Assembly (NCBI RefSeq): GCF_012933445.1
Contig: NZ_JABBNC010000005.1
Coordinates: 62,001-126,000 of the forward strand
Direction: 5' to 3'
From: Actinoplanes sp. TBRC 11911
GTDB taxonomy: Bacteria > Actinomycetota > Actinomycetes > Mycobacteriales > Micromonosporaceae
Length of the DNA: 64,000 nucleotides
The translations under genes and the position numbers were made by a program. A model generated the notes under the pieces. It was given only the letters and a program-made list of their open reading frames with translations, was not told the origin of the DNA and ran no database searches. Shown here piece by piece: positions 16,758 to 35,923 of the stretch. Numbering within the stretch: position 1 is the first letter of the stretch; the number at the start of each line of letters is the position of its first letter.

Positions 16758-17218
16758 AACTGTTCAGCTGCTTCCGTCGGCCGGGAGTCCCCGTGCGAGG
16801 CGGGGCTGCCAGGCCCGGGCAGGTCCCAGCTCCCCACAGTGGGAGCCCCACCCGGGTGTGGGCAGTAGCGACGCCGGGGAGGTTGTGGTTGCCCACACCG
16901 CGGCCACCCTCACCCACGTGCGGGGAGTCGCGACGGCTGGGAGGTTATGGTTGTCCACACCGCGGCCACGCTCACCCGCGTGTGGAGAGTCGCGACGGCT
17001 GGGAGGTTGCGGTTGCCCACACCGCGGCCACCCTCACTCACGTGCGGAGAGTCGCGACGGCGGGGAGGCTGTGGTTCCCTCAACCGTGGCGACCCACAGC
17101 GGGTGTGGGCACCTGTCACGGCCGGAACCTCCCAGCTCCCCACAGCGACCGGCCTAGCAGGTCCGCCACGGAAGGCCGACGCATCGCAGGGTGAGCGGCG
17201 AGACGGAGCTGAACAGTT
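16758..17218 (-). repeat. Repeat element A: 12-bp inverted ends, 62-bp tandem core (about 4 units)
   Basis: Bounded by AACTGTTCAGCT (16758-16769) and AGCTGAACAGTT (17207-17218), exact inverted copies. The core contains 62-bp units starting near 16882, 16944, 17006 and 17068, each with a GTCGCGAC centre and a CCCACAC word. It is 461 bp long and inverted relative to the elements at 20768 and 35337: its right arm matches their left arm reversed. Readings through it give low-complexity proteins that simply translate the repeat, so no gene is annotated. Confidence 0.85.
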
Positions 17219-17264
17219 CCACAGTGTGGGCGCGCCGCGCGCCGCACCCAGCGGCCCGGCCGCC

Positions 17265-17328
17265 CGGCGATCCGGCGATCCGGCGATCCGGCGATCCGGC
17301 GATCCGGCGATCCGGCGATCCGGCGATC
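17265..17328. repeat. Perfect 8-bp tandem repeat, eight copies
   Basis: CGGCGATC repeated eight times without error, then a partial copy and two nearby ATCCGGCAGGTCA words (about 17325 and 17359). It follows repeat element A by 46 bp. A period of 8 does not preserve a reading frame, which argues against coding. Confidence 0.9.
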
Positions 17329-17466
17329 CGGCAGGTCAACGGCCCGGCGGCCCCACCGATCCGGCAGGTCACCGGAAATGTCGGGTATGCGAAGCATGGT
17401 GGCCGGCTGCGTTCAGTGACTACCTCTAGGACTCTCGTCTAGACGCTGGCCTGATGCCGCCGGGTA

Positions 17467-18084
17467 TCACTCTCGGCGTCGTAACCGTTTGTGGCTCGTG
17501 CGCAGCGCGTCGATGTGGCGGTCGGGGCCGGGTGACCGCAGGGTGTCGATGACGTTCCATGCCTCGACGAGCGCCTGCAGCAGCTCTGCCGTGTGCGCGG
17601 CGTGCTGGCGGCGCATGTCGTGCCGGACCGTCTCCAGCCGCTGCGCCCAGCCAGCGGCGGTGGCGTCCGGAAGCCGGGCGGTGGCGGCGTCCGCGTGCCG
17701 GGCACTGGCGTCGCCGCGCCGAGCGGTGGCGTCGCCGCGCCGGGCGATGACGTCCGCGTCCAGGGCAGTGACGTCCGCGTCCAGGGCAGTGACGTCGGGG
17801 TGCCGGGCCGCGACGTCGGGGTGCCGAGCCGCGACGTCGGGGTGCCGAGCCGCGACGTCGGGGTGCCGGGCCGCGACGTCGGGGTGCCGAGCCGCGACGT
17901 CGGGGTGCCGGGCGGCGATCAGGTCCGGGGGACCGATCGCCGCGACGGGTCGTCCCTGGTCGACGATGAGGACGGTCTGCCGGGTCGCCCGGATCTGCCG
18001 CACAAGTTGTAGAAAGCGCGTACGGGCTTCGTTGACCGGGAGTTCGAGGTGGCTGGGCGCGGGAGTCCTGGCTGGGGCTACCAT
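17467..18084 (-). CDS. Phd/YefM-like protein with in-frame heptad repeat expansion
   Basis: A 205-residue protein in three parts. Residues about 13-52 (LPVNEARTRFLQLVRQI...QTVLIVDQGRPVAAIGPP) resemble the DNA-binding/dimer fold of Phd/YefM antitoxins. Residues about 57-140 are some twelve heptads: six exact AARHPDV, two TALDADV, then variants ending in DA or DV; at DNA level this is a 21-bp minisatellite (exact units at 17791-17916). The last 65 residues form a charged helical region (WAQRLETVRHDMRRQHAAHT). No toxin gene is adjacent, so this is not a proven toxin-antitoxin pair. The ATG at 18084 lacks a strong ribosome site. Repeat count is likely to vary between strains. Confidence 0.72.
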   Translation of the reverse strand: MVAPARTPAPSHLELPVNEARTRFLQLVRQIRATRQTVLIVDQGRPVAAIGPPDLIAARHPDVAARHPDVAARHPDVAARHPDVAARHPDVAARHPDVTALDADVTALDADVIARRGDATARRGDASARHADAATARLPDATAAGWAQRLETVRHDMRRQHAAHTAELLQALVEAWNVIDTLRSPGPDRHIDALRTSHKRLRRRE

Positions 18085-18129
18085 GCGCTCAGCATGACGG
18101 CCGGGTATGACAATTTCGGCCGGCGGTTT

Positions 18130-18735
18130 CTACACGCCGAGCAGTCTCTCGACGCCGCGCCAGAGTCGCTCCTCGGCGTCGCCGTCGCGGAACAGGTGGA
18201 CCGCCATGTTGAAGCCGGTGAACAGGCCCATCAATTCGAAGGCCAGTTGGCCGGGGTCGGCGCCCTCGGGGAGCTCGCCCAACTCCGCGGCCTCCCTCGT
18301 CGCATCGGCCAGATAGGTGCGCCACAACGTCATTCCGTTGAGGATCGCGTCGTGGACCGGGCCGTCGAGTGCGTCGTATTCGAACGTCGCCGTGGTGAAC
18401 AGGCAGCCGCCGGGAAAGCGCTCGGGCTCCGCCGCGATGTAGCGGATCCAGCCCTCGGTCAGCGCGCGCAGCCGGGCCCGGCCGGGAGCCGCCGCGGAGG
18501 CCGGTTCCAGCATGATCTCGGTGATCAGTTCGGCGGCTCGCTGGAGGATCGAAAGCTGGAGCGTCTCCTTGCTCTTGAACGGACCGATCAGACCGGCCTT
18601 GCTCATCCCGACCTCGTCGGCGAGACGCGCGATCGACATCGCCCGCAGCCCCTCGACCGAAGCGACGGCGACACCGCGGTCCAGGATGTGCCGCCGCGCC
18701 GCTGCCGCTCCGGTCATCGTGTTTCGAGGGCTCAT
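18130..18735 (-). CDS. TetR/AcrR family transcriptional regulator
   Basis: A 201-residue TetR protein. The HTH is SIARLADEVGMSKAGLIGPF with a following KETLQLSILQRAAELI helix. The C-terminal half (about 75-195) contains the PGGCLFTTATFEYDALDGP segment seen in the YxaF/LmrA-like subgroup. It lies downstream of, and in the same direction as, the hydrolase/SnoaL-like pair. An 18-bp operator-like sequence upstream of this gene (18773-18790) recurs before the SnoaL-like gene (20583-20600), so it probably controls both transcription units and responds to a substrate of the hydrolase. Confidence 0.9.
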   Translation of the reverse strand: MSPRNTMTGAAAARRHILDRGVAVASVEGLRAMSIARLADEVGMSKAGLIGPFKSKETLQLSILQRAAELITEIMLEPASAAAPGRARLRALTEGWIRYIAAEPERFPGGCLFTTATFEYDALDGPVHDAILNGMTLWRTYLADATREAAELGELPEGADPGQLAFELMGLFTGFNMAVHLFRDGDAEERLWRGVERLLGV

Positions 18736-18772
18736 GGTGGATCAGACTGCCCCGGGCCGACACGGATAACAA

Positions 18773-18790
18773 GCGAACGTACGTGTGTTA
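18773..18790. promoter_or_regulatory. Operator-like site before TetR gene, shared with 20583
   Basis: GCGAACGTACGTGTGTTA matches ACGAACGATCGTATGTTA at 20583-20600 in 14 of 18 positions. Both have dyad symmetry around a 2-bp centre. It lies 38 bp before the TetR start and beside the hydrolase stop at 18795. Confidence 0.55.
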
Positions 18791-18794
18791 ACAC

Positions 18795-19703
18795 CTAGAG
18801 ATGCCGTCGGAAGAAGTCGCGGGCCGAGCTCGATGCGGTCCGGAAACCGGCACCGGCGTACAGGGAATAATGCCCACCGGTGACGAGCACGAGCTCTTTC
18901 GGGGCGGCCGCGGTCTCGTAGGCTGCGAGGGTCTTGACGGTGGACGCCACCACGTCGTCGCTCGCCACGATCATGAGCAGCGGCGTCGGCGCGATCTTCG
19001 GCAGGTACAGGCCGGGCTCGTAGCCGTAGACGAACTCCATGCTGCGCAGGCTGAGCTCGTTGGACCACGCGGGGATGTCCCGGGTGCGCAGCAGTTCCTC
19101 GAAATACTCGTGCGACGCGGCGATCGGCAGCGACGACACCGCGGCCGGGTCGGCCGACGTGATCGGCAACATGCCGGCGGCCGCACCCCGGGCCCGGGCG
19201 AGACGGTCCTGCGCCAGCAGCGCGAGCGTCGGGCCCACCTGGTCGATCCGGATCAGTCCTTCCACCTGGGCGCGGCCGCTGACCACCGGCGCCTGACCGA
19301 CGACCGCCTTCACCCGGGAATCGATGGCACCCAGCACGAACGCGTGACCGGCCGAGTAGCTGGTTCCCCAGACGCCGATCCGGGCCGGGTGCACCTCGGA
19401 GCGGGCCTGGGCGTACGTGATCGCGTTCTGATAGTCGCGGATCTGTTCCCACGGGTCGATCTCCTGCCGGACGTGCCCCGGTGCGACGCCGGAGGTGCCC
19501 CAGCCGCGGTAGTCGAACACGACGACCGCGAGACCCGCCGCAGCGAACACCTCGGCGAAGTCGTCCATGTGCATTTCCTTGGTGGCGGCCCATCCGTGGG
19601 CGAGTACGACGCAGGGGGCCGCCGAGGTGTTTCCGGCGGCCGGATAGAACCAGCCCCGCAGCGGCACGCCGTCCGAGTCGAAGGTGATGTCTTCGCGTGT
19701 CAT
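18795..19703 (-). CDS. Alpha/beta hydrolase (YcjY/dienelactone-hydrolase-like)
   Basis: A 302-residue alpha/beta hydrolase. It has the oxyanion segment VVLAHGWAATKEMH, a FDYRGWGTSG strand-turn, and the nucleophile elbow GVWGTSYSAGHA with the serine in GTSYS. The likely acid is in LLMIVASDDVV and the catalytic histidine in LVTGGHYSLY near the C-terminus. No signal peptide, so probably a cytoplasmic esterase or peptidase-like enzyme; substrate unknown. The ATG at 19703 follows AAGGAAA. It lies 14 bp downstream of the SnoaL-like gene and should be cotranscribed with it. Confidence 0.88.
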   Translation of the reverse strand: MTREDITFDSDGVPLRGWFYPAAGNTSAAPCVVLAHGWAATKEMHMDDFAEVFAAAGLAVVVFDYRGWGTSGVAPGHVRQEIDPWEQIRDYQNAITYAQARSEVHPARIGVWGTSYSAGHAFVLGAIDSRVKAVVGQAPVVSGRAQVEGLIRIDQVGPTLALLAQDRLARARGAAAGMLPITSADPAAVSSLPIAASHEYFEELLRTRDIPAWSNELSLRSMEFVYGYEPGLYLPKIAPTPLLMIVASDDVVASTVKTLAAYETAAAPKELVLVTGGHYSLYAGAGFRTASSSARDFFRRHL

Positions 19704-19717
19704 TGCTTTCCTTGCCG

Positions 19718-20554
19718 TCAGACGAGCGTGAGCCGGTACAGGGTGACGAGGGCGTCGGTGTCGCGGGCGCCGCCGTCCCAGGTCGAGGTCATCCGGGCGA
19801 TCCGGCCGTCGTCGTCCAGCTCCAGCGCCGTGATGCCGGGCAGCGCGCGGCCGGCCGCCGTCCATTCGAAGCCGCCGCCGCGACGCCCCCCGACCACGTG
19901 ACGGATGCTCAGACCACGCCCGTACGGGATCAGCGGCAACGCCTTGTGCAGGAAACTGTGGACCGGTTGCCGGCCGGTCAGGTGCACGTTCAGGGCCAGG
20001 TCGTCGAACTCGACGTCGCCGGACATCAACGTGGCCGCGCGATCCGCGTCCCCGTCGGCGAGCGCGGCGGCGAGCTCGGTCACGATCTGGCGCATCGCCG
20101 GGTCGGCGCGTTCCTCGACGGTGGCCTCCGCCAGGTCGGCGGGCCACTGGTCAGCCGGCACGGACAGGTCTTTCAGCAGGCCGGCCGGCCAGGTGCGGCC
20201 ACTCCAGTAGTCCACCCAGCGCACGATCTTGCCGTCCTCGAAGTCCACCGACGAGATGGTCCGGATCTCCGCGCCGAACATCTCCGCCGAGTCGACCATG
20301 AAGACGATCGCGCCGTCGGTGTCGCCGAGAGTCCGCGTCGCGTACGAGTGAGCGCCTTCCTTCCAGGTCGCGAAGAGCTCCCGGGCGCGCGCCGGGTCCG
20401 CGCCGAGCCGCCAGCCCATCGTGGCGTCGAGGTAGTTGGCCTTCTCCGGCGCGAAGTACCCGACGAAGTCGTTGGCGCCGGACACACCTTGGGACTTGGC
20501 CTCGAACAGGCCGTCCATGAGCTGCCGGAGTTCCGGCGTGGCGAGTGCGTTCAT
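19718..20554 (-). CDS. Two-domain SnoaL-like (NTF2 fold) protein
   Basis: A 278-residue protein that appears to be two NTF2-like domains in tandem, about 1-135 and 140-278. The first has VDFEDGKIVRWVDYWSGRTW and the second ITALELDDDGRIARMTSTWD, the matching C-terminal strand pairs. Such proteins bind small hydrophobic molecules and some act as isomerases or cyclases; the reaction is unknown. The ATG at 20554 is chosen because a longer reading would include the operator at 20583-20600. First gene of a two-gene minus-strand operon with the alpha/beta hydrolase. Confidence 0.78.
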   Translation of the reverse strand: MNALATPELRQLMDGLFEAKSQGVSGANDFVGYFAPEKANYLDATMGWRLGADPARARELFATWKEGAHSYATRTLGDTDGAIVFMVDSAEMFGAEIRTISSVDFEDGKIVRWVDYWSGRTWPAGLLKDLSVPADQWPADLAEATVEERADPAMRQIVTELAAALADGDADRAATLMSGDVEFDDLALNVHLTGRQPVHSFLHKALPLIPYGRGLSIRHVVGGRRGGGFEWTAAGRALPGITALELDDDGRIARMTSTWDGGARDTDALVTLYRLTLV

Positions 20555-20582
20555 GGCGGCGACGCTAGTGGAGTTTTCGCGT

Positions 20583-20600
20583 ACGAACGATCGTATGTTA
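20583..20600. promoter_or_regulatory. Operator-like site before SnoaL-like/hydrolase operon
   Basis: ACGAACGATCGTATGTTA, the second copy of the sequence at 18773-18790, located 29 bp upstream of the ATG at 20554. A common TetR regulator for both promoters is the simplest explanation. Confidence 0.55.
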
Positions 20601-20767
20601 TAGAACCCACAACGATGAATTCTGGCTCTCGCGATATTTTTCGGTGGTCGGGCCGGCATCCTCTGGGCTGGCCGGCCCGGCCGGTAGCGCGCACTCCCAT
20701 TTCATGGGACGGGCGGCCGCCTACTGAGACTGGCGACCACATCCTGGACGCAGCGTCCGCTATGCGT

Positions 20768-21106
20768 AACCGTTCAGCTGGTTCTCGCGCCGCTCACCCT
20801 CCGATGCGGCGGCCTTCCGCGGCTGACCTGAGGGCCGTCGCCGTGGGGAGCTGGGACGTTCCGGCCGTGGCGGGTCCCCACGCCCGCTGTGGGTCGCCAC
20901 GGTGTGGGGAACCACAGCCTCCCCGCCGTCGCGACCCCCCACACGTGGGTGAAGGTGGCCGCGGTGTGGGCAACCACAGCCTCCTCGGCGTCGCGACTGC
21001 CCACACCCGGGTGGGGCGCGCCCACTGTGGGGAGCTGGGACCTGCCCGGGCCTGGCGGCGCCGCCTCGCACCGGGACTCCCGGCCGACGGAACCAGCCGA
21101 ACAGAT
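20768..21106 (+). repeat. Repeat element B: inverted ends, 62-bp tandem core (2 units)
   Basis: Ends AACCGTTCAGCT (20768-20779) and AGCCGAACAGAT (21095-21106) are degraded versions of the 12-bp ends of elements A and C. Units start near 20902 and 20964, exactly 62 bp apart. Total length is 339 bp. The left arm (GTTCTCGCGCCGCTCACCCT, GGCCTTCCG, GGGACGTTCCGGCCGTG) and right arm (GGGACTCCCGGCCG) match element C almost base for base. It fills most of the 608-bp gap between 20555 and 21162; the rest holds the operator above and, at about 20700-20765, a flank shared with element A. Confidence 0.85.
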
Positions 21107-21162
21107 ACGCTGCGAAAGTCCACATAGCGGGGCGCCGCGGCCGGCCGGGGAAGATTGCTGTC

Positions 21163-21474
21163 GTGACTGACAGCACCTGGGACGCCGTGGCCGCCGCCCG
21201 CGCTTGGCTGGACGCGTCCAACGGAACGTCCCCTTTGGAGCTCACCCACCGCATCCTCAAGCTGACCGAGGAAGCGGGCGAGGCCGCCGCCGCCTGGATC
21301 GGCGCGAATGGCCAGAACCCCCGCAAGGGCGTGACCCACACCTATGAAGACGTGGCCGACGAGCTGGCCGACGTCGCGTTCACGGCCCTGGTCGCGATAG
21401 CCAGCCTCGGCTTCTCGCCGGAGGACACCCTCGCCCGCTGCGCCCAGAAGGTCGCAAAACGCCTGCCGCAATAA
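21163..21474 (+). CDS. MazG-like nucleotide pyrophosphohydrolase-type protein
   Basis: A 103-residue all-helical protein. ILKLTEEAGEAAAAWIG provides the ExxE part and YEDVADELADVAFTALVAI the ExxxD part of the Mg2+-binding signature of the MazG/dUTPase-like superfamily. Single-domain members hydrolyse non-canonical or excess NTPs to NMP and pyrophosphate; here only the fold and metal residues can be claimed. GTG start at 21163. It begins 56 bp after repeat element B. Confidence 0.82.
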   Translation: MTDSTWDAVAAARAWLDASNGTSPLELTHRILKLTEEAGEAAAAWIGANGQNPRKGVTHTYEDVADELADVAFTALVAIASLGFSPEDTLARCAQKVAKRLPQ

Positions 21475-21479
21475 CTTCG

Positions 21480-21529
21480 TTGACGACGCAACTAAGCCTC
21501 CCGTAGACTTCGGAAAGTTGAAGTTTCAA
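21480..21529 (+). promoter_or_regulatory. Promoter with TTGAA-N2-TTCAA operator before dioxygenase gene
   Basis: TTGACG (21480-21485) and TAGACT (21504-21509) are an 18-bp-spaced candidate -35/-10 pair. Directly downstream is the perfect palindrome TTGAAGTTTCAA (21518-21529), which has the core of the MarR-type sites at 3485-3508 and 3936-3955. A repressor bound there would block initiation or clearance. Confidence 0.55.
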
Positions 21530-21549
21530 TGGAGACGGAGGTCGTGAAC

Positions 21550-22320
21550 ATGAGCCGGACGCCTGCCCTCTTCCTCAGTCACGGCGCGCCGCCGCTCGCC
21601 GACGACGCGACCTGGGTCGGGCAGCTCAAGGAGCTGGCGAAGACCCTCCCCCGGCCCAAAGCGATCCTGATGGCCTCGGCCCACTGGGAGTCCGCGCCGC
21701 TCATGCTGGGCGCCACCGAGACCGTGCCGCTCGTCTACGACTTCGGGGGCTTCGCGCGCAAGTACTACGAGGTCACCTACCCGGCGCCGGGCGCACCGGA
21801 GCTCGCCACCCGCATCGAGAAGCTGATGCCGGACGCCGAGCCGGTCGCGCGGACCCACCGCGGGCTCGACCACGGCGCGTACGTGCCATTGACCGTGATG
21901 TTTCCGGAGGCGGACATCCCGGTGCTGCAGATGTCGCTGCCGACGCTGGACCCGGACCGGCTGCTCGAGCTGGGCAAAAGGCTGGCGCCGCTGCGCGACG
22001 AGGGAGTGCTGATCGTCGGCTCCGGCTTCACCACGCACGGCCTGCCGTTCCTGCGGGACTGGCGGCCGGAGGCGGTCGCGCCGGGCTGGTCGGTCGAGTT
22101 CGACGCCTGGGCCGCCGAGACGCTCGCCCGGGGTGCGGTCGACGAGCTGGCCGAGTTCCGGACCAGGGCGCCGGGCATGCCGTACGCGCACCCGACGATC
22201 GAGCATTTCGCCCCGATGTTCCTCACTTTGGGCGCCTCGGAAGACCCGGAACGGGCGCCGGATCAACCCATCGACGGCTTCTGGATGGGCCTGGCAAAAC
22301 GGTCATTCAGCACCCAGTAA
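21550..22320 (+). CDS. 4,5-DOPA-extradiol-type (LigB class III) ring-cleavage dioxygenase
   Basis: A 256-residue protein of the LigB superfamily, YgiD/DODA type. The metal-binding and catalytic histidines are in LFLSHGAPPL near the N-terminus, MASAHWES, RGLDHGAYVPL and GFTTHGLPF. Enzymes of this class cleave catechol rings with Fe(II) or Zn(II); in bacteria they are often induced by quinones or catechols. The ATG at 21550 is preferred over one at 21529 because GGAGG lies 8 bp before it and the earlier ATG falls at the edge of the operator palindrome. The shared operator type links it to the SnoaL/MarR locus at 3555-4933. Confidence 0.88.
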   Translation: MSRTPALFLSHGAPPLADDATWVGQLKELAKTLPRPKAILMASAHWESAPLMLGATETVPLVYDFGGFARKYYEVTYPAPGAPELATRIEKLMPDAEPVARTHRGLDHGAYVPLTVMFPEADIPVLQMSLPTLDPDRLLELGKRLAPLRDEGVLIVGSGFTTHGLPFLRDWRPEAVAPGWSVEFDAWAAETLARGAVDELAEFRTRAPGMPYAHPTIEHFAPMFLTLGASEDPERAPDQPIDGFWMGLAKRSFSTQ

Positions 22321-22399
22321 GTGTGATCTTCAGCATTCTCCCAGGGTATGCGGGGACAATTCCAAACGAATGCCCCCGCTTACCGGAGGTTCCGCACAC

Positions 22400-23425
22400 A
22401 TGCTTGAGGTCACCGCGCTCGGCTGGACGCTGACCATCGGTGTCATTGTCGCCCTGCTCGCCCTCGACCTGACCTTGGGTGTGCTGCGCCCGCACGCCGT
22501 CGGCTTCCGCGAGGCCGCCGCCTGGTCGGTCTTCTACATCGCGATCGCGGTCGCCTTCGGCGTCGTGTTCGGCACGGTGGCCGGCTGGGATTTCGGCGCT
22601 CAGTATTTCGCCGGCTACATCGTGGAGAAGAGTCTGTCCGTCGACAACCTCTTCGTCTTCGTGATCATCATGAGCACGTTCGCCGTACCGGAGAAGTATC
22701 AGCAGGAGGTGCTGACCTTCGGCATCATCATCGCGCTGATCTTCCGGGTCGTCTTCATCGCCCTCGGCGCGACGTTGCTGAGCCTGTTCTCGTTCATGTT
22801 CCTGATCTTCGGCCTGCTGCTGATCTTCACGGCGGTGCAGCTGTTCCGGCACCGCGACGAGGACCCGGACATCGAGGACAACGCGCTGGTGCGCGTCAGC
22901 AAACGGCTGCTGCCGGTCAGCGACGAGTACATCGACGGCAAGATGATCGCGCGGGTGGACGGTCGCAAGGTCGTCACCCCGATGCTCATCGTGCTGATCG
23001 CGATCGGCAGTTCCGACCTGCTGTTCGCCCTCGACTCGATCCCGGCCGTGTTCGGCGTGACCGACGAGGCGTACATCGTCTTCATCGCGAACGCGTTCGC
23101 CCTGCTCGGGCTCCGCGCCCTGTTCTTCCTGGTGAAGGGCCTGCTGGACCGCCTGGTCTATCTCTCGACCGGGCTCGCGGTGATCCTCGCGTTCATCGGC
23201 GCCAAGCTCGTGCTGCACTGGCTGCACACCGACATCAGCGACTCGGTACCGGAGATTCCGACCTCGCTCTCGCTGGTCGTCATCGTCGTGGTCCTGACGA
23301 TCACCACGGTGGCCAGCCTGGCCAAGGTACGCAAGGACCCGGATGCCAAAGCCCATGCGGGCAGCATCCGGGCCCGTGCTCAAACTCCTGCCACGGCCGA
23401 CGAGGAACGTCGTCAGCCCAGATAA
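22400..23425 (+). CDS. TerC family integral membrane protein
   Basis: A 341-residue membrane protein with about eight or nine helices. TerC hallmarks are visible: VEKSLSVDNLFVFVIIMSTF (acidic and Asn residues inside a helix), RVVFIALGATLL, and SSDLLFALDSIPAVFGVTDE. A charged cytoplasmic loop (HRDEDPDIEDNALVRVSKRL) splits the two halves. TerC proteins are tied to tellurite resistance and, in Bacillus homologues, to manganese export during exoenzyme metallation. Start ATG at 22400 after CCGGAGG. Its stop overlaps the convergent small gene at 23413 by 13 bp. Confidence 0.92.
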   Translation: MLEVTALGWTLTIGVIVALLALDLTLGVLRPHAVGFREAAAWSVFYIAIAVAFGVVFGTVAGWDFGAQYFAGYIVEKSLSVDNLFVFVIIMSTFAVPEKYQQEVLTFGIIIALIFRVVFIALGATLLSLFSFMFLIFGLLLIFTAVQLFRHRDEDPDIEDNALVRVSKRLLPVSDEYIDGKMIARVDGRKVVTPMLIVLIAIGSSDLLFALDSIPAVFGVTDEAYIVFIANAFALLGLRALFFLVKGLLDRLVYLSTGLAVILAFIGAKLVLHWLHTDISDSVPEIPTSLSLVVIVVVLTITTVASLAKVRKDPDAKAHAGSIRARAQTPATADEERRQPR

Positions 23426-23670
23426 CCGCCCATTCCGGCGGTCGGACGACCGCCGGCGGCCAGCCGGTAGGCGTCGTGGCGGTACAGGATGTCCCGGATC
23501 TGCTCGGTCTCCTCGGCCGTGTGGCGGCTCAGGAGCTCGTCGATCTCGGCTCGCTCTGCGGTTGTGCGGAAGGACGCGAGCTCGTCGGTGAGCTTGCGGT
23601 GCGCGACGCGCATCGTCCGCCGGTTCGCCAGCCCCGTACGGACGTCGCGGAGCTTGGACTTGATCATCAT
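23413..23670 (-). CDS. Small charged helical protein, function unknown
   Basis: An 85-residue protein, mostly charged and predicted helical (MRVAHRKLTDELASFRTTAE, EIDELLSRH, EETEQIRDILYRHDAYRL), with a glycine-rich tail. It has one of the best ribosome sites in the window (AAGGAGAAGGAC directly before ATGATG), so it is almost certainly translated. No domain is recognised. It is convergent and slightly overlapping with the TerC gene. Confidence 0.72.
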   Translation of the reverse strand: MMIKSKLRDVRTGLANRRTMRVAHRKLTDELASFRTTAERAEIDELLSRHTAEETEQIRDILYRHDAYRLAAGGRPTAGMGGYLG

Positions 23671-23840
23671 GTCCTTCTCCTTAACGGATCGTAATGGCGA
23701 AAGGCTTCGTCGCCTTCGGGTACAACGATCCAGGTCCCGGGTGTCATACCGAAATCACGCAGGTAAAAGCCTCGTTATCGAAGTGACGTCGGCCACTGTA
23801 ACGCGGTAATCACGGTCACTCTCTGTCGCCAACGTGCTGG

Positions 23841-26671: not shown

Positions 26672-27331
26672 CTATTTTCGCTGGGTGGTCACCGAGGTCG
26701 CCGTGACGGTTCCGTCGGCGCCGGCCGCGCCCTGCACGGTCACCGGCTGGCCGGCCTTGACGGCGGAGAGCTTGCTCGCGGTGGCGGTGGAGACGGTGGT
26801 CTTGCCGTCGGTCTTGACGGTCACCACGTTGCCGTCCGTGGTCTGCACGTAGATCGTGCTGCCGTCGACCAGCTTGACCGTTCCGGTGGTGGCGCCGCCC
26901 GCCGCGGCACCGGTGGCGCCCGGACCGGCGCCGCCGCGCTGGAAGCCGCCCTGAGCACCGCCGCCCTGAGCACCGCCGCCCTGAGCACCGCCGCCCTGAG
27001 CACCGCCGCCCTGAGCACGGCCGCCTTGCGCGCCGCCTTGAGCGCCGCCGCCGGCCCGACCCTGGCCGCCGCCGAAGCCGCCGCCCGCGAATGCGCCGTT
27101 GGCGAAGCCCGCGCGTCCGGACTGCTGCGGACCCCAGCTCTTCTGCGCCTGCAGGCCGCCCGCGAAGCCGCCGACCAGCAGCACCGCCCCGGCCAGACCC
27201 ACCGTGCCCTTGTTCCACCAGCGGCGTGGCGCGGCCTTGGCGAGCTCGCGCGCCAGCCCGTCACCGGGACCGTCCCCGGGGGCCGGATCCGGGGTCACCG
27301 GCAGCACAGCGGTTTCGTCGTTCATCGTCAT
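26672..27331 (-). CDS. Membrane-anchored Gly/Gln-rich repeat protein with DUF5666-like C-terminus
   Basis: A 219-residue protein. A short cytoplasmic N-terminus precedes one membrane helix (VGLAGAVLLVGGFAGG, about 44-59). Then comes a low-complexity stretch of AQGGG repeats, which at DNA level is a 15-bp tandem repeat (units from 26953, 26968, 26983, 26998). The C-terminal 75 residues (TTGTVKLVDGSTIYVQTTDG, VVTVKTDGKTTVST, QPVTVQGAAGADGTVTATSV) form small beta repeats like DUF5666 proteins. It is the last gene of the efflux operon, 12 bp after the permease. Its role is unknown; its place suggests a surface or adaptor-associated part. Confidence 0.8.
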   Translation of the reverse strand: MTMNDETAVLPVTPDPAPGDGPGDGLARELAKAAPRRWWNKGTVGLAGAVLLVGGFAGGLQAQKSWGPQQSGRAGFANGAFAGGGFGGGQGRAGGGAQGGAQGGRAQGGGAQGGGAQGGGAQGGGAQGGFQRGGAGPGATGAAAGGATTGTVKLVDGSTIYVQTTDGNVVTVKTDGKTTVSTATASKLSAVKAGQPVTVQGAAGADGTVTATSVTTQRK

Positions 27332-27343
27332 CGTGGGAGTCCC

Positions 27344-28549: not shown

Positions 28550-29262
28550 CGGGAGTGCCTTCCGGCCAGGATCGGGGACTGCCGGAGGTCCTGGATGACC
28601 CGGCCGTCGACCAGGCGGATCAGGCGCTTGGCCCGGTCCCCCACCTCGGTTTCGTGGGTGATCAGGACGATCGTCCGGCCGGACGCGTTGAGCTGGTCGA
28701 ACACGTTCAGCACATCCTCGGTGGAGCGGCTGTCGAGGTTTCCGGTCGGTTCGTCGGCGAGCAGCAGCGCCGGCTCGGTGACCAACGCCCGCGCCACCGC
28801 GACCCGCTGCTGCTGGCCGCCGGAGAGCTGGTTGGGTTCGTGGCGGGCGCGATCCGCGAGCCCCACCACGTCGAGAGCGGCGAGGGCACGGCGGCGACGT
28901 TCCTTGGGCTTCACTCCCGCGTACGCCAGTGGGAGTTCCACATTCGCCACCGCGGACGTACGGGGAATGAGGTTGAACGCCTGGAAGATGAACCCGATGA
29001 GCCGGTTCCGGGCCAGCGCCAGCTGACGGTCCGCGAGGCGGCTCACGTCGACGCCGTCCAGCAGGTACGTCCCGTCGCTGGGCACGTCGAGCGCGCCGAG
29101 GATGTTCATCAGCGTCGACTTGCCGGAGCCGGACGAGCCCATGATCGCCACGTAGTCGCCGCGCTGGACGGTCAGCGACACGCCACGCAGGGCGTGCACC
29201 GTCGCCTCCCCCGTCCCGTACACCTTGGTCAGATCGCGCACCTCGAGGACCGGGCGGTTCAT
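28546..29262 (-). CDS. ABC transporter ATP-binding protein (MacB/LolD type)
   Basis: A 238-residue ATPase with Walker A MGSSGSGKST, Q-loop GFIFQAFNLIP, signature LSGGQQQRVAVARAL, Walker B LLLADEPTGNLD and H-loop ITHE. This is the LolD/MacB subfamily that pairs with FtsX-like permeases. The ATG at 29262 overlaps the stop of the adaptor gene (ATGA), and its own stop overlaps the permease start, so adaptor, ATPase and permease are made from one coupled message. Confidence 0.94.
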   Translation of the reverse strand: MNRPVLEVRDLTKVYGTGEATVHALRGVSLTVQRGDYVAIMGSSGSGKSTLMNILGALDVPSDGTYLLDGVDVSRLADRQLALARNRLIGFIFQAFNLIPRTSAVANVELPLAYAGVKPKERRRRALAALDVVGLADRARHEPNQLSGGQQQRVAVARALVTEPALLLADEPTGNLDSRSTEDVLNVFDQLNASGRTIVLITHETEVGDRAKRLIRLVDGRVIQDLRQSPILAGRHSR

Positions 29263-30539
29263 CGGCCGCCCCCGCCGGCGCCGCGGAAGCCGCCCGCACC
29301 GGCACCGCGGGCGCCTCCGCCGGCGAAACCGCCACCGCCCGGGAAGCCGCCACCGCCGGGGAAGCCGCCGGTCGCGCCATTGCCCGTGCTGGTCGCGGCC
29401 GCCACCACCTGGACCTGCTGGCCCGCCTGCAGCCCGGAGGTGATCTGGGTGGTCGAGTCGCCCTGCAGGCCGATCTGCACCGGGGTTCGCACGGCCTGAC
29501 CGTTGGTCATCACCGTGACGAAATGCTGAGGGCCGACCGTGGTCACCGCGGCCGAGTTCACGAACAGGGCGTTCGCGACGCTTCCGGTGGTGACCACGAC
29601 GTTGACGGTCTGGCCCACCTTCGCCCCGGACGGCACCTTGTCCATGCTCACCGTCACCCCGTACGTCACGACGTTGTTCGAGGTCGTGGCCGACGGGTCG
29701 ATCGCGGTGACCTTGCCGGTCGCGGTGGTGCCGCTGAGCGCGTTCCAGGTGATCTCGGCGGTCTGCTTGTCCTTGATCTTGGTGGCGTCGGCCTCGGCGA
29801 AGGCCGCGGTGACCTGGAGCTTGGAGAGATCCGCGAGGTCGATGAAACCGTCGCTGGTGCTGGAGGTCGAACTCGCGCTGGAGCTCGATGAGCCGGAGCC
29901 TGAGCCGCCGCCTTGGCGGTTTTGCCCGCTTTGCCCCGAGCTGCTGCCGGAGCCTGAGCCTGAGCCCGAGGACGAGCTCGAACCCGAGCCCGAGCCGGAC
30001 GAGCTGCTGCCCAGCGTCCCGTTGACGGCGGTCACCGTGCCCGACATCGGCGCCGTCAGCGTCGTGCCGTCGACGCCCGCCTGCGCCTCGTCCACCGAAA
30101 GCTCGGCCTGCTCGACGTCGTTCTCCGCGGTGGAGGTGTCGGCGTTCGCGTCCTGCGCCCGGGTCAAGGAGTCGCGCGCGGCGTCGAGGTCGGCGTTGGC
30201 GGCGTTCAGGGTCCGCTCCGCCGCCGCCGGATCGACCTTGGCGAGCGTCTGGCCCTTGGTGACCTTCTGGCCGACCTTCACGTTGATCGCGGTGACCGTG
30301 CCGCCGGTGACGAAACTCGCGCTCGCCGTGCTGGTGCTCGCCACCGACCCCGCCGCGGTCACCGTCTTGATGACCTGGCCTTGCTCGACCGGGGTGACGC
30401 GGGAATCGGTGGCCGCGGCCTCGGCGGCGTGCGGTCCGGACAACGACCGATAGGCCCAGAAACCCCCGGCGGCGATGGCGATGACGAGGACGGCGTTGAC
30501 GGCCACCGAGGGACTTCGCAGGGAGAGGCGCGCTGGCAT
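29259..30539 (-). CDS. HlyD/MacA-like membrane-fusion adaptor with Ser/Gly-rich loop
   Basis: A 426-residue protein with one N-terminal membrane helix (VAVNAVLVIAIAAGGFWAY), a lipoyl-like half (VEQGQVIKTVTAAGSV and VGQKVTKGQTLAKVD), a coiled-coil hairpin (RTLNAANADLDAARDSLTRA), then the second lipoyl half and beta-barrel. A very Ser/Gly-rich stretch (about residues 178-220) is inserted between hairpin and barrel, and the C-terminus is Gly-rich (GFPGGGGFPGGG). In Gram-positives such adaptors sit outside the membrane and assist MacB-type permeases. It lies in an operon with the ATPase and permease, 65 bp after the kinase gene. Confidence 0.88.
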   Translation of the reverse strand: MPARLSLRSPSVAVNAVLVIAIAAGGFWAYRSLSGPHAAEAAATDSRVTPVEQGQVIKTVTAAGSVASTSTASASFVTGGTVTAINVKVGQKVTKGQTLAKVDPAAAERTLNAANADLDAARDSLTRAQDANADTSTAENDVEQAELSVDEAQAGVDGTTLTAPMSGTVTAVNGTLGSSSSGSGSGSSSSSGSGSGSGSSSGQSGQNRQGGGSGSGSSSSSASSTSSTSDGFIDLADLSKLQVTAAFAEADATKIKDKQTAEITWNALSGTTATGKVTAIDPSATTSNNVVTYGVTVSMDKVPSGAKVGQTVNVVVTTGSVANALFVNSAAVTTVGPQHFVTVMTNGQAVRTPVQIGLQGDSTTQITSGLQAGQQVQVVAAATSTGNGATGGFPGGGGFPGGGGFAGGGARGAGAGGFRGAGGGGR

Positions 30540-30604
30540 GCGGACACTGTGGCCGGACCGGCTCGGAGGACCTTCGGGGCAAGCTCGGAGCCAGCTAGGA
30601 AGCT

Positions 30605-32101
30605 CTACTCGGCGTCACCGTCGGTGGGAAGCAACACCCGGAAAGTGGCTCCTCCCCCGCGCGGAGCGTCCAGTTCCACCCACCCTCCGTGACCGTGCAC
30701 GATCGCCGCCACGATGGACAGGCCGAGACCGGAACCGCCGCCCTTGCCCCGGGTGCGGCTGGAGTCGGCGCGGTAGAGCCGTTCGAAGACGCGGGGCGCG
30801 TGCAACGCCGGCACGCCCGGGCCGTCGTCGGTCACCTCCAGCACAGCGAGCGCGCCGGGTTCGCCGTGCGCGGCCGGCGGACCGGAGACGACACTTGCCG
30901 ACCGGGGCGCCCGCGCGGGCAGCCGGCCCACCCGGACGGTGACGGTGGCCTCGGCCGGGGTGTGCTGCAGCGCGTTCGAGACCAGGTTCGTCGCGACCTG
31001 GCGCAGCCCGTGCTCGTCGCCGAGGACGGTGGCCGGTTCGAACGTGTCGGTGTCGTCGCGTAGACCGGCGAGGCGTACCGGGCGGCCGGGCACCCGGGCG
31101 TGCGCGTCCCGGATGGTGTCGGCGGCGATCTCCAGCAGGTCGACCGGGCGCAGCGCGGGCGGGCGCTGCCGGTCCAGCCGGGCGAGCATCAGCAGATCCT
31201 CGACCAGCACGCCCATCCGGCCGGCCTCGGCCTCGATCCGGCTCATCGTCTCGTCCAGGGCCGGGCCGGGGGTGGCGCCACCGCGGCGGTACAGCTCGGC
31301 GAACCCGCGGATCGAGGTGAGCGGGGTGCGCAGCTCGTGCGAGGCGTCCGCGACGAACTGCCGCAGCCGCTGCTCGGAGGCGGTGCGGGCGTCGACCTCG
31401 GTCTCGATCCGGGTGAGCATCGAGTTGAGCGCCAGACCCAGCCGGCCCGGTTCGGTGTGCGGATCGGCGGCGGCCACCCGGCCGGACAGGTTACCGGCCG
31501 AGATGTCGGTGGCGAGGCTTTCCATCTCGGTGAGCGGGCGCAAGCCGAGGCGTACGACAAAAGCGGCGCCGCCCAGCAGAAGCGCGAGCACCAGGACCGA
31601 GACGCCGGCGTCGATCAGCATCAGCTGATCGGTGGTTTGCTCCACCTCGGAGAGTGACAGGCCGATCACGGCGGCACCACCGGTCTGCGCGTCCGGCACG
31701 GCGATCAGGCGCCAGGAGGCGCTACCGTCATGCGAACTGACCGTGTACGGCTTGCCGGCTTGCACACGAGCGACGACGTCGTTGAGGCGTGGCACGTCCG
31801 GCCTGGTCGCGTCGCGTTCCGAGCTGCGCGGGTCGAGTGAGCCGTCCGCGTTCAGCAAGTAGGCGACCTGGTCCGGACCGAGCCGGGGCAGGCGGAAGCG
31901 GAACGCCGTGTTCACGTCGGGGCGTGCGGTCGCGAACGGCCTGGTCATGCCCAGCAGCTGCTGGTCGATGCGGTCGCGCAGGTAGCTGCGGATGAGCACG
32001 AGCCCGGTGGTGTTCGCGATGATCAGAGCGATCGCGGCCAGGGCCCCGACGACGAGCACCAGGCGCGATCGCAGCGTCCAGTGGCGCCAGGCCTTCATCA
32101 T
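30605..32101 (-). CDS. HAMP-containing sensor histidine kinase (two-component partner of 32112)
   Basis: A 498-residue kinase. Two membrane helices (VLVVGALAAIALIIANTTGL and MLIDAGVSVLVLALLLGGAA) flank an extracellular sensor of about 120 residues. A HAMP linker (LRPLTEMESLATDISAGNLS) leads to HisKA with phosphoacceptor DASHELRTPLTSIRGF, then HATPase_c with NLVSNALQHT, DDGPGVP and GKGGGSGLGLSIV. The start is set at 32101, 10 bp after the response-regulator stop; further in-frame starts upstream overlap that gene. It probably senses a cell-envelope cue or the exported compound and controls the surrounding efflux genes. Confidence 0.92.
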   Translation of the reverse strand: MMKAWRHWTLRSRLVLVVGALAAIALIIANTTGLVLIRSYLRDRIDQQLLGMTRPFATARPDVNTAFRFRLPRLGPDQVAYLLNADGSLDPRSSERDATRPDVPRLNDVVARVQAGKPYTVSSHDGSASWRLIAVPDAQTGGAAVIGLSLSEVEQTTDQLMLIDAGVSVLVLALLLGGAAFVVRLGLRPLTEMESLATDISAGNLSGRVAAADPHTEPGRLGLALNSMLTRIETEVDARTASEQRLRQFVADASHELRTPLTSIRGFAELYRRGGATPGPALDETMSRIEAEAGRMGVLVEDLLMLARLDRQRPPALRPVDLLEIAADTIRDAHARVPGRPVRLAGLRDDTDTFEPATVLGDEHGLRQVATNLVSNALQHTPAEATVTVRVGRLPARAPRSASVVSGPPAAHGEPGALAVLEVTDDGPGVPALHAPRVFERLYRADSSRTRGKGGGSGLGLSIVAAIVHGHGGWVELDAPRGGGATFRVLLPTDGDAE

Positions 32102-32111
32102 TCGTCGTGCT

Positions 32112-32864
32112 TTACTCGTCGCCGCGCGGCATTCGCAGCGCGTAGCCGACACCTCGGACCGTGTGGATCAGCGGCGGGTCGGTCTTGTCGATCTTGCGGC
32201 GCAGGTAATAGACGTACGACTCGACGATGCGGCCGTCGCCACCGAAGTCGTAGCGCCAGACCCGGTCCAGGATCTGTGCCTTGCTGACCACTCGGCCCGC
32301 GTTGATCAACAGGTACTTCAGCAGGTTGAACTCGGTCGGGGACAGGTCGATCAGACGGCCCGACCGGCGGACCTCGTGGGCGTCCTCGTTCATCTCCAGG
32401 TCGGCGTAGCGCAGCACGCCGCTGTCCGCCGAGCCCTCCAGATCGGGCTGCGTGCGCCGCAGGATCGCCCGGATCCGCAACACCACCTCTTCCAGGCTGA
32501 ACGGCTTGGTCACGTAGTCGTCGGCGCCGGCCGACAACCCGGAGATGCGGTCCTCCACCGTGTCGCGCGCGGTCAGGAACAGCACCGGCACCCGGCGGCC
32601 GGTGCTGCGCAGCCGTTTGGCCACGTCGAAACCGTCCAGATCGGGCAACATCACGTCGAGCACCACCAGATCGGGATCGAACTCCTCGATCACGGCGAGC
32701 GCGGAATGACCGGTCTCGGCCACCCGCACATCGAACTCGACGAGACGCAAAGTGGCGCTGAGCAGCGCGGAGATGTTCGGCTCGTCGTCGACGACGAGGA
32801 TCCTGGCGGCCCGCGCCGGGGGCTCACTCAGGGCGACGGAGGAACGGGGTTCAGAAAGCACCAC
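32112..32864 (-). CDS. OmpR/PhoB family response regulator
   Basis: A 250-residue regulator. The receiver domain has the acidic pair in ILVVDDEPN, the phosphoacceptor Asp in LVVLDVMLPDLDG, the Thr of FLTARD and the Lys of YVTKPF. The C-terminal winged helix has LSPTEFNLLKYLLINAGRVV, SKAQILDRVW and VESYVYYLRRKIDK, as in OmpR/PhoB proteins. GTG start at 32864. Followed after 10 bp by its kinase; preceded by the second adaptor gene, 60 bp away. Confidence 0.94.
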   Translation of the reverse strand: MVLSEPRSSVALSEPPARAARILVVDDEPNISALLSATLRLVEFDVRVAETGHSALAVIEEFDPDLVVLDVMLPDLDGFDVAKRLRSTGRRVPVLFLTARDTVEDRISGLSAGADDYVTKPFSLEEVVLRIRAILRRTQPDLEGSADSGVLRYADLEMNEDAHEVRRSGRLIDLSPTEFNLLKYLLINAGRVVSKAQILDRVWRYDFGGDGRIVESYVYYLRRKIDKTDPPLIHTVRGVGYALRMPRGDE

Positions 32865-32924
32865 GAAGGAATATCAACGGAGCCTAGGAATTCCCTATGA
32901 GTTCCGCGTGAATCGCCTGGACCC

Positions 32925-34169
32925 TCACCAGCTCTGCGCGACGGTTTCGCCGGAGTTGAGACCATTCGTGATCTCGGTGTACTGGTCACCGCGCAGCCCG
33001 ATGCCGACTTTCACCGGGGTGTCGTCCTTGAGGACGGTCCCGGTGTCCCCCGCCACGTCATGCACCGCCGTGCTCGGCACCCGCAGCACGCCGGCCTTGT
33101 CGCCGGTGGTCACCTTCACCGCCGCGCTCTGGCCGACGAGCAGGTCTTTCGGGGCGTCGACGAAGGCAAGCACGACACCGTAGCGAACCATCGTGCCGTC
33201 GCTGGTCCCGGTCGGGTCCACCTGCACCACGGTCGCCTTGAACTCGGTGCCCGGCTGGTCGGCGAGGCTGACCACGGCCTTCTGGGCGACCGCGAGGTGA
33301 TCCGCGTCGGCCTCCGGGAACTGCGCGCTGATCTGCATGTCATACGTGTCGGCCAGGGTGATGAAGGTCGCCCCGGCACCGACCTGGCTGCCGACGTTGC
33401 CGCCGACGCTGAGGATCTTGCCGGCGATCGGGGCCTTGATGGTGGCGCCGTCCAGGGCATCCTCGGCGTTCTGCAGGGTGGTGTTGGCCTGCGTGAGGCG
33501 CTGCTGGGCACTCAGGATCGAGTCCTGCCCACCTTGCGGGTTCTGCCCGCCTTGCGCGTTCTGCCGGCTGCCGGTGGTGTCGCACGTCTCCTGGCCGCCG
33601 GCCTTCGTCTGCGTGGGCCGGCTCGTGGTGCTCGGACGCGCCTTCGTGGCCGACGGGCTCGGGCTTGCGGTCGGCGACCCACTCGGCCTGCTCGCGCTCG
33701 GCGACGGCGTTTTGCTGCTGCTCACGTACGCCGCGGGAACGTTGCGTCCGCAGTTCGACGGCGCGGTGGTGGGCGGCTTCGAGGCGTCGGACTGCGCCTT
33801 GTCGAGCGCCGTCTCGGCGTCGTCGAGGGCGCTCCGCGCGTTGTCGACCGCCTCGGCCGCGTCGGCGTCGTCCACCTTCGCGAGTACCTGATCCTCCTTG
33901 ACGGTCGTGCCCGCCCGCACCGACACGCTCTCGACCGTGCCCGCCACCGCGAACGACAGGCTGCGCGTCTGCGCCGGCTGGACCGTTCCGGTGGTCGCCA
34001 CCTGTGTGGACACGTCGCCACGGTCAACCATTGCGGTAGCTTGCGCGGCCGGCTTGGCCTCGGCACCCGCGCCGGTGGCGCGTATCACCCCGAAAACGAT
34101 CAGCACGAGCACGACCACGGCCGCGGCAAGCCAAATCCAGCGCCGGCGACCGGCCAGTGCTTCACCCAT
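32925..34169 (-). CDS. HlyD/MacA-like adaptor with Ser/Pro/Thr-rich insertion
   Basis: A 414-residue adaptor with an N-terminal membrane helix (WIWLAAAVVVLVLIVFGVI), lipoyl halves (VQPAQTRSLSFAVAGTVESV; IKAPIAGKILSVGGNVGSQV), a split coiled-coil hairpin and a barrel domain. Between the two hairpin helices there is an unusual insertion of about 90 residues, rich in Ser, Pro, Thr and Gln with two cysteines (SNCGRN and QETCDTT), which could form a disulfide outside the cell. It is the first gene of the seven-gene minus-strand block and a paralogue of the adaptor at 29259. A second ABC pair for it is not present here. Confidence 0.87.
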   Translation of the reverse strand: MGEALAGRRRWIWLAAAVVVLVLIVFGVIRATGAGAEAKPAAQATAMVDRGDVSTQVATTGTVQPAQTRSLSFAVAGTVESVSVRAGTTVKEDQVLAKVDDADAAEAVDNARSALDDAETALDKAQSDASKPPTTAPSNCGRNVPAAYVSSSKTPSPSASRPSGSPTASPSPSATKARPSTTSRPTQTKAGGQETCDTTGSRQNAQGGQNPQGGQDSILSAQQRLTQANTTLQNAEDALDGATIKAPIAGKILSVGGNVGSQVGAGATFITLADTYDMQISAQFPEADADHLAVAQKAVVSLADQPGTEFKATVVQVDPTGTSDGTMVRYGVVLAFVDAPKDLLVGQSAAVKVTTGDKAGVLRVPSTAVHDVAGDTGTVLKDDTPVKVGIGLRGDQYTEITNGLNSGETVAQSW

Positions 34170-34333
34170 GGCCCGGAAGTGTTGCGGCTGGTCCTCGCCG
34201 GAGCCTCGGTCCTGCCTGGGAGTTGCCTAGGAGCGGCCGCTCCCCCGCTCCGAGGTGATTCCGAGGTGAGACCGATGTGGCGGCGAGGTTCGCCCGCTTG
34301 GGTGATGCGACACCGTCGAGGAAGAGGGGCATC

Positions 34334-34927
34334 GTGCCGAGACTCAGTTGGAAGGCGGCGGGTCTGGTCGTGGCGACCGCCGCGGTCTTGCTCGTCGCCG
34401 CGTGTGGCGGCAGCAGCGGTTCGGACTCCGCGTCCCCGAGCGGCGGAAACGGCGGTGGCGGCAACAACGCCTTCGCCGCCTACGTGGACTGTCTGAACAA
34501 GAACGGCGTCACGATCAGCCTCCCATCCGGTGGTCCCGGCCAGCGCGGCGGCCGGCCGTCCGGCGGCCCGCGGAACCGTCCGTCCGGCGGCGCGCGCCCG
34601 TCCGGGATGCCGCGCCCCCGCCCGTCCGGCAGCTTCGGCGGCGGCCGTGGCTTCGCCGGTGGCTTCTTCCAGAAGCCGGCCGACGTCGACGACGCGACAT
34701 GGCAGAAGGCCCAGGACGCGTGCGCGTCGGTGCGGCCGAGCTTCGGCCCCGGCGGTAACCGGCCGGGTGGCGGTGGCGCGCAGAACGCGGCCTTCCAGAA
34801 CTGCATGAAGGACCACGGCGTCACCGACCTGCAGAACCTCTCGACCGCGGACCCGACGGTGAAGAAGGCCCTGGACGTCTGCATGGTGCTGCGGCAGGCC
34901 CGGCCGAGCGCCACACCGGCCGCTTAG
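34334..34927 (+). CDS. Secreted lipoprotein, Gly/Pro/Arg-rich
   Basis: A 197-residue protein with a lipoprotein signal: basic start, hydrophobic GLVVATAAVLLVAAC and lipid-modified Cys at residue 24. Then a Ser/Gly linker, a FAAYVDCLNKNGVTI segment, a Pro/Arg/Gly low-complexity stretch (about 75-115), and FQKPADVDDATWQKAQDACA and FQNCMKDHGVT segments, so four cysteines could pair. The pattern of two short cysteine helices resembles other actinobacterial surface proteins found with MacB-type operons. The GTG at 34334 follows GAGGAAGAGGGG. Divergent from the efflux block; a role in its sensing or assembly is inferred from position. Confidence 0.82.
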   Translation: MPRLSWKAAGLVVATAAVLLVAACGGSSGSDSASPSGGNGGGGNNAFAAYVDCLNKNGVTISLPSGGPGQRGGRPSGGPRNRPSGGARPSGMPRPRPSGSFGGGRGFAGGFFQKPADVDDATWQKAQDACASVRPSFGPGGNRPGGGGAQNAAFQNCMKDHGVTDLQNLSTADPTVKKALDVCMVLRQARPSATPAA

Positions 34928-34931
34928 TTCT

Positions 34932-34975
34932 CGTACCGGTGCCGCCTCGGCCCCCGCGAAGGCGGCACCGGTACG
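34932..34975 (+). terminator. Strong hairpin after the lipoprotein gene
   Basis: Perfect 16-bp arms CGTACCGGTGCCGCCT and AGGCGGCACCGGTACG around a 12-nt loop, beginning 4 bp after the stop codon. Confidence 0.75.
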
Positions 34976-35077
34976 TTCCGCCGGCAGCGCCACCCCGCGA
35001 AGGCGCACCGGGCGGGTCCGCACCTCGACGCCGTCGACCACGCGGCACCGGCACGTTCAGCCAGCAGCGCCGCCCCG
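34962..35077. repeat. Imperfect direct repeat of 36 bp, offset 80 bp
   Basis: GCGGCACCGG-YACGTTC...CAGCGCC occurs at 34962-34997 and again at 35042-35077 with a few mismatches; the first copy overlaps the terminator stem. A weaker related word is found midway. No gene is supported here. From about 35110 to 35180 the sequence carries repeated TGGGAC and CCACAT words like those near repeat elements A and B. Confidence 0.55.
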
Positions 35078-35255
35078 GAACGCCAGACCGCGCCGACCGC
35101 GAAGCCGGCCCACTATCTGGGACCGGCGCCCGCATCCTGGGACCAGCGACCACATCGTGAATCCACGCCCAAAATGCGGAACCCGAGTCTACTGTAGACG
35201 TCGATTAGCCCAGCCATACGGCTTTTGTCCGCCGCGCATTCCCGGCCAAGAGTGA

Positions 35256-35314
35256 ACCTTGGAGAGTTGTGGTCGATATGTGGGTGTCGATATGTGGGCG
35301 CAACTCTCCAAGGT
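35256..35314. repeat. Conserved hairpin element, copy 2
   Basis: Arms ACCTTGGAGAGTTG (35256-35269) and CAACTCTCCAAGGT (35301-35314), 14 bp, perfect. The 31-nt loop contains TCGATATGTGGG twice. The stem and the TATGTGGGCG word match the hairpin at 16564-16610 in opposite orientation. Repeat element C begins 22 bp downstream. Confidence 0.75.
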
Positions 35315-35336
35315 CTCCAGGAAGCCCACGATGCGG

Positions 35337-35923
35337 AACTGTTCAGCTGGTTCTCGCGCCGCTCACCCTCCGATGCGTTGGCCTTCCGTGGCGGACCTGT
35401 GAGGGCCGCCGCTGTGGGGAGCTGGGACGTTCCGGCCGTGACAGGTCCGCACACCTGCTGTGGGTCGCCGCGGTGTGGGGAACCGCAGCCTCCCCGCCGT
35501 CGCGACTCCCCACACGGGGGTGGGACTGGCCGCGGCGTGGGGAACCGCACACTCCCCGCCGTCGCGACTCCCCACACGGGGGTGGGACTGGCCGCGGCGT
35601 GGGGAGCCACAGCCTCCCCGCCGTCGCGACTCCCCACACGGGGGTGGGACTGGCCGCGGCGTGGGGAACCGCACACTCCCCGCCGTCGCGACTCCCCACA
35701 CGGGGGTGGGACTGGCCGCGGCGTGGGGAACCGCACACTCCCCGCCGTCGCGACTCCCCACACGGGGGTGAGGGTAGCCGCGGTGTGGGCAACCACAGCC
35801 CCCCAGGCGTCGCGACTTCCCACACCCGAGTGGGGCGCCCACTGTGGGGAGCTCGGACCTGCCCGGGCCTGGCGGCGCCGCCTCGCAGGGGGACTCCCGG
35901 CCGGCGGAACCAGCTGAACAGTT
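35337..35923 (+). repeat. Repeat element C: 12-bp inverted ends, 62-bp tandem core (6 units)
   Basis: Ends AACTGTTCAGCT (35337-35348) and AGCTGAACAGTT (35912-35923) are exact inverted copies. Six core units start near 35473, 35535, 35597, 35659, 35721 and 35783, each 62 bp. Middle units are almost identical. A unit can fold on itself through GTGTGGGGA and TCCCCACAC. Total length is 587 bp, which is element B plus exactly 4 x 62 bp. All three frames on both strands are open for long distances only because the unit lacks stops; the products are repetitive and not credible genes. Confidence 0.88.

Follow-up and report, generated by a model that had tools for sequence, protein, structure and literature searches.

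A length-variable MITE with a 62-bp tandem core in extragenic palindromes of an Actinoplanes genome, likely mobilized in trans by a resident IS66-type transposase

The window analyzed here, a stretch of 64,000 nucleotides from Actinoplanes sp. TBRC 11911 numbered from its first letter, contains three dispersed repeat elements, each with 12-bp inverted ends and a core for which Tandem Repeats Finder reports a 62-bp period. The elements, their cores, and their flanks are located as follows.

16756–17220, − strand: element 1, with terminal GG (17219–17220) and AC (16756–16757), read on the − strand, beyond the 12-bp inverted ends
16749–16755, unstranded: target duplication on the right side of element 1, ACACTGT on the − strand
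17221–17227, unstranded: target duplication on the left side of element 1, ACACTGT on the − strand
16851–17159, − strand: core of element 1, divisible into five unit-like stretches of ~62 bp, the outermost (17098–17159) being a degenerate arm unit
20766–21108, + strand: element 2, with terminal GT (20766–20767) and AC (21107–21108); ends decayed
20759–20765, unstranded: left target copy of element 2, GCTATGC, equal to the right copy at 4 of 7 positions
21109–21115, unstranded: right target copy of element 2, GCTGCGA, decayed
20827–21011, + strand: core of element 2, with three unit-like stretches that start with a degenerate arm unit
35335–35925, + strand: element 3, with terminal GG (35335–35336) and AC (35924–35925)
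35328–35334, unstranded: left 7-bp target duplication of element 3, ACGATGC
35926–35932, unstranded: right 7-bp target duplication of element 3, ACGATGC
35459–35830, + strand: core of element 3, with six units spaced at exactly 62 bp, of which the four central ones are almost identical to each other

Measured with the 12-bp inverted ends included, elements 1, 2, and 3 are 461, 339, and 587 bp long, respectively. When they are set in one orientation, both arms align and the differences consist mainly of whole 62-bp units: element 3 exceeds element 2 by exactly four units (587 − 339 = 248 = 4 × 62), and element 1, whose core is about two units longer than that of element 2, exceeds it by 122 bp (461 − 339 = 2 × 62 − 2). 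The coordinates, inverted ends, relative orientation, and lengths given in the initial annotation of this DNA are thus all correct. Elements 1 and 3 are flanked by perfect 7-bp duplications, and the middle copy, in which the ends are mutated (AACCGTTCAGCT / AGCCGAACAGAT), retains a GT-form start beside a decayed duplication. The elements had been described as lacking a transposase, and indeed no transposase domain was found by Pfam (E 0.1) in the 9 scanned of the 21 listed open reading frames (≥60 aa) over the three elements. A coding array was also considered and rejected, 62 not being a multiple of 3 and the nine tested frames being devoid of any domain. Other tandem repeats occur nearby: a perfect 8-bp repeat (CCGGCGAT × 8.6) near element 1 (window 17264–17332), high-identity 21-bp repeats at 17673–17918, and a degenerate 32-bp repeat directly past element 3 (36110–36244).

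In the genome, a 9.66-Mb draft assembly of 97 contigs, the end pattern AACTGTTCAGCTG (at most one mismatch) occurs at 146 places versus 3 for the reversed control pattern, and longer end patterns occur at 74 right-end and 71 left-end places. Matching of both arms over the window and 73 stretches fetched around end-pattern places yielded 69 complete copies, the window's three included, and left 7 left and 4 right ends without a partner. The family has at least 69 members; confinement to this window, which the initial annotation had named as a refuting result, was not observed. Copy lengths range from 282 to 834 bp, and 63 of the 69 fall within 5 bp of 339 + 62n (12.2 expected), the commonest numbers of extra units being one (23 copies), none (13), and two (13); the proposal that the core varies in whole 62-bp units therefore holds for the family. 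Orientation is balanced (33 on the + and 36 on the − strand), and the GC content of the element is 73%. The copies possess terminal inverted repeats, the 12-bp ends being exact on both sides in 44/69, on the left in 52/69, and on the right in 53/69. Because the left repeat is preceded by GG (67/69) or GT (2/69) and the right repeat is followed mostly by AC (59, with CC in 9 and AT in 1), the element is best written as (G)GAACTGTTCAGCT...AGCTGAACAGTTAC. The ends are not all recent, since the last 60 nt are 87% identical in the median pair (mean 79%, ungapped, 69 copies) and the flanking duplications are imperfect in 29 of the 69 copies.

Two further arrangements were observed among the copies. 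Head-to-tail pairs, ~11–33 bp apart, are found at three places (G000:C15:122201-123017, C19:104359-105195, and C45:50423-50941, one copy of the last pair being truncated), with shared target-like sequence between the two members. A second dispersed repeat, consisting of 43-bp hairpins (CCTTGGAGAGTT...AACTCTCCAAGG), is present in the window at 16566–16608 and 35257–35313; 55 hairpins were counted in the fetched loci, 51 of them exactly 43 bp long, versus none in reversed sequence, and 24 of the 69 elements have one at most 60 bp away.

The target duplications that the initial annotation suggested looking for are present. The 7-base flanks are equal at all seven positions in 40 of the 69 copies and at six or more in 60, compared with 62 and 299 (6.4%), respectively, of 4692 cross-copy flank pairs. 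In a column test, positions L-3 to L-9 matched R9 to R3 far above shuffles and L-1, L-2, L-10, and L-11 did not; the duplications are accordingly best read as 7 bp, a 10-bp reading having been dropped after this test. The perfect duplications comprise 32 different 7-mers, and the flank is therefore not a fixed part of the element. It could be supposed that recombination or gene conversion, without any transposition, dispersed the repeats as a structural satellite, as the tandem core, the local homogenization of its units (see below), and the head-to-tail copies at three places would suggest; the copy-specific flanking duplications, in 32 different sequences, together with the precise ends and the exact insertion points within palindromes, make this very improbable. 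The structural array that had been offered as an alternative is thus unnecessary, and the prediction of one dispersed non-autonomous mobile element is borne out by the 69 complete copies with their inverted ends and flanking duplications.

The elements are mostly inserted at a fixed point, the center of CC-N7-GG palindromes, outside predicted genes. This motif is present at 40 of the 69 rejoined sites versus 1.2% of the intergenic background (1496/125153 positions), and its looser form, YYR-N5-YRR, at 63 of the 69 versus 1.8% of intergenic positions. None of the 69 copies falls within a gene predicted by our own codon-usage script, a crude gene finder covering 70% of the fetched sequence. Palindromes recur in intergenic DNA at a pitch of 20–21 bp (82 and 40 pairs versus 16 and 7 in reversed sequence), and the genic part, nearly three times larger, has 18 and 20 such pairs. 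The arrays that they form are intergenic, ~100 bp long, and composed of five degenerate palindromes, often with a T-run at the end; they serve as landing sites of the MITE, an example being the sequence to the left of element 2 (window ~20697–20766). A profile built from 13 of these arrays gave 57 matches in the MITE-excised loci, and 18 of the 69 insertion sites lie inside such matches, a count that is not independent because the seeds came from the same loci. After excision of the element and one duplication, the five-palindrome match spans the junction at these 18 sites, and insertions within the matches fall at recurring model positions. A 16-base target pattern occurs at 21 places in this genome and at 0–4 in each of 66 congeners.

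With respect to the core, 324 units were cut at a common anchor, 255 of which are not the first, arm-like unit (one 833-bp copy was only partly recognized). Inner units are more alike within a copy (identity 0.904, 255 pairs) than between copies (0.798, 16,950 pairs), the highest value in 1000 permutations being 0.814, and therefore the units multiply or homogenize locally. Expansion or homogenization of the core arrays in place is thereby supported by sequence comparison, in keeping with the first half of the original proposal that the core expands and contracts; the contraction half found no support. The most conserved parts of the unit are the inverted segments GTGTGGG / CCCACAC, and the whole element folds better than shuffled sequences on both strands (z −4.6 and −3.9), as expected from its inverted repeats. 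A unit hairpin acting as a conserved RNA was examined and rejected: among 215 distinct units, the pairing rests on near-invariant columns with no convincing compensatory change, and only 60% of them can pair at the sole variable pair of positions (22/50). These features bear on the possibility that the copies, having arrived by transposition, are now kept as regulatory or transcript-shaping modules of the host, as proposed for BOX elements. The location of all 69 copies outside genes predicted by our home-made finder, the folding, and the conserved inverted segments are in agreement with such a role, which we nevertheless regard as unlikely, given that the intergenic position follows from target choice, that the variable pair behaves as described, that no bias is seen in the orientation of neighboring genes (19 convergent, 14 divergent, and 30 codirectional among the 63 copies with both neighbors), and that Rfam has no family matching window 16500–36300.

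A candidate partner for the element resides in the same genome. It is an IS66-type insertion sequence of 1512 bp (G000:C45:50972-52483), 9.5 kb upstream of the window and adjoining a MITE copy, which was located from one further place with the same end, leading into the gene at L139 3581-5038. Its single intact open reading frame fills the element and encodes an IS66 transposase of 485 aa containing PF03050 (153.1 bits; cut-off 23.1), zf-IS66 PF13005 (33.8 bits; cut-off 27.3), and DUF6444; the other listed open reading frames overlap this gene in other frames, consistent with a single-ORF element without tnpA/tnpB. The ends, GTAACTGTTCAGCTGG / GTGACTGTTCAGCTGG, are flanked by the perfect 7-bp duplication GCATCGT (8 bp would be possible were one end one base shorter), and the target, CC-GCATCGT-GG, is the same CC-N7-GG as that of the MITE. 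Starting with GTAACTG and GTGACTG, the ends fit the GTAA / GTRAC of ISBst12-like IS66 elements, and from its sequence the insertion sequence would be classified as single-ORF IS66-type (ISBst12-like). Among IS66 relatives whose loci were fetched with the transposase as query, 9 of 38 have related GTRAC ends (GTAAAC in one) and perfect 8-bp duplications. The best relative of the transposase in the database is 87% identical (among the best 120 of 7944 matches), and the next-best within the 250-genome family sample is 50% identical. A solo 3′ end of the insertion sequence (28-nt match, L109 3445-3472, G000:C17) was also noted near another copy of the MITE, at a distance of some tens of bases.

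On the basis of these results, it is highly probable that the three repeats represent one non-autonomous transposable element (MITE), for which the transposase of the resident IS66-type insertion sequence, whose ends match, likely acts in trans. The insertion sequence is regarded as the likely motor because it shares with the MITE the end core, the 7-bp duplication, and the CC-N7-GG target, and because no gene of the genome other than its transposase gene matches PF03050. In the predicted mechanism, the transposase would bind the ends common to both elements and insert the MITE at CC-N7-GG palindromes, after which further units may be added to the core through replication slippage or unequal recombination, in a process separate from transposition. 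Against IS-driven mobilization count the limited extent of the common inverted-repeat core (only ~15–17 terminal bases), the second base (T in the insertion sequence; G in 67 of the 69 MITE copies and T in 2), and the 8-bp duplications documented for IS66-type elements (ISDge4 and the 9 of 38 relatives). Alternatively, a different transposase may have spread the MITE and since been lost, or be absent from the draft assembly, in which case the present insertion sequence would simply have similar ends. One insertion sequence versus at least 69 complete MITEs leaves room for such a lost partner, and the GG start, the decay of many copies, and the division of the assembly into 97 contigs point the same way; however, the shared terminal repeat, duplication length, and unusual target, together with the absence of a second PF03050 gene from the genome, render this explanation rather improbable.

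Apart from short matches, no further member of the element family was detected in the congeners, the family sample, the GTDB end-pattern search, the plasmids, or the phages. In 66 congeners, with at most 13 candidates scored per genome, six short weak matches were obtained (E 8e-5 to 8e-4), and at least 15 of the 249 other genomes of the family sample gave short matches (~25–52 bp, best E 3e-6) in a search that scored 2 candidates per genome and may miss weak remnants. At the inspected match (G040), no IS66 gene was seen. The 20-base end pattern occurs in 6 records of GTDB genomes from unrelated taxa, approximately as often as we estimate for chance, in a search whose output may exclude the genome of the window itself. 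A phage or plasmid origin was considered and rejected, element 3 having no match in either collection.

The initial annotation stated that no named family fits these repeats, a view now superseded by the match of their ends to the resident IS66-type (ISBst12-like) insertion sequence and by their resemblance in build to the pneumococcal BOX element. The single-ORF IS66 group is little studied: a 2026 paper on ISDge4 of Deinococcus geothermalis describes what it observed as the first case of active transposition in this group (PMC12898284). ISDge4 belongs to the ISBst12 group and has the ends GTGACTACTCAGCA / GTAACTGCTCAGCA with a repeat of 8 bp (PMC12898284). The local insertion sequence (GTGACTGTTCAGC / GTAACTGTTCAGC) resembles ISDge4 in its single-ORF transposase and in imperfect ends of the form GTGACT.../GTAACTG.TCAGC, but differs in the duplication, which is 8 bp in ISDge4 (PMC12898284) and is best fitted by 7 bp here if the ends are taken at full length; the accessible text of that paper does not mention palindrome targeting for ISDge4. 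The MITE further differs from the ISBst12 group in having a tandem core and no transposase gene.

Repeated precise insertion into short intergenic palindromes is shared with the REP-targeting insertion sequences, for which a 2006 survey reported the families IS3, IS110, IS4, IS256, and IS5 (PMC1525189), IS66 being absent as a term from its main text; if our reading is correct, IS66 would join the families that choose extragenic palindromes. Like the bacterial MITEs Nezha and MITECca01 (PMC3049150, PMC9769881), the present element is short, lacks a transposase, and has the ends of a resident insertion sequence and target duplications, but, unlike them, it is GC-rich (73%) and built on an expanding satellite. 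In the accessible text of PMC12888890, PMC3281130, and PMC9769881, no IS66-derived MITE is described, and our literature search for MITEs of Actinoplanes or Micromonosporaceae found nothing pertinent.

By comparison of architecture, the closest relative appears to be the BOX element of Streptococcus pneumoniae, in which two fixed end modules surround a variable number of tandem modules (boxB), and which is likewise intergenic and non-autonomous, with inverted ends and target duplications (PMC3049150). The likeness is in architecture alone: sequence, host, and GC content differ, and the core unit here is 62 bp. BOX-like elements are puzzling because their motors are uncertain; mobilization of BOX by an insertion sequence with similar ends (ISSpn2) has been proposed (PMC3049150), whereas the partner here is IS66-type with clearly matching ends, and insertion occurs in extragenic palindromes. 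Because a single genome contains 69 complete copies of the element, the family of target sites, and, as the candidate motor, one intact gene of IS66 type, mobilization in trans becomes testable. If true, the proposed history would show how a mobile element can seed minisatellites that afterwards change in length at their sites, which would make them useful as strain markers. Finally, we are evenly divided on a broader reading, in which an IS66-type transposase acquired the habit of targeting extragenic palindromes and its parasite, combining IS66 ends with an expanding 62-bp satellite, scattered dozens of minisatellites of variable length over intergenic sites where insertion is safe; the element would then represent an independent origin of the BOX-like modular design in a high-GC actinobacterium, and its motor would be known.
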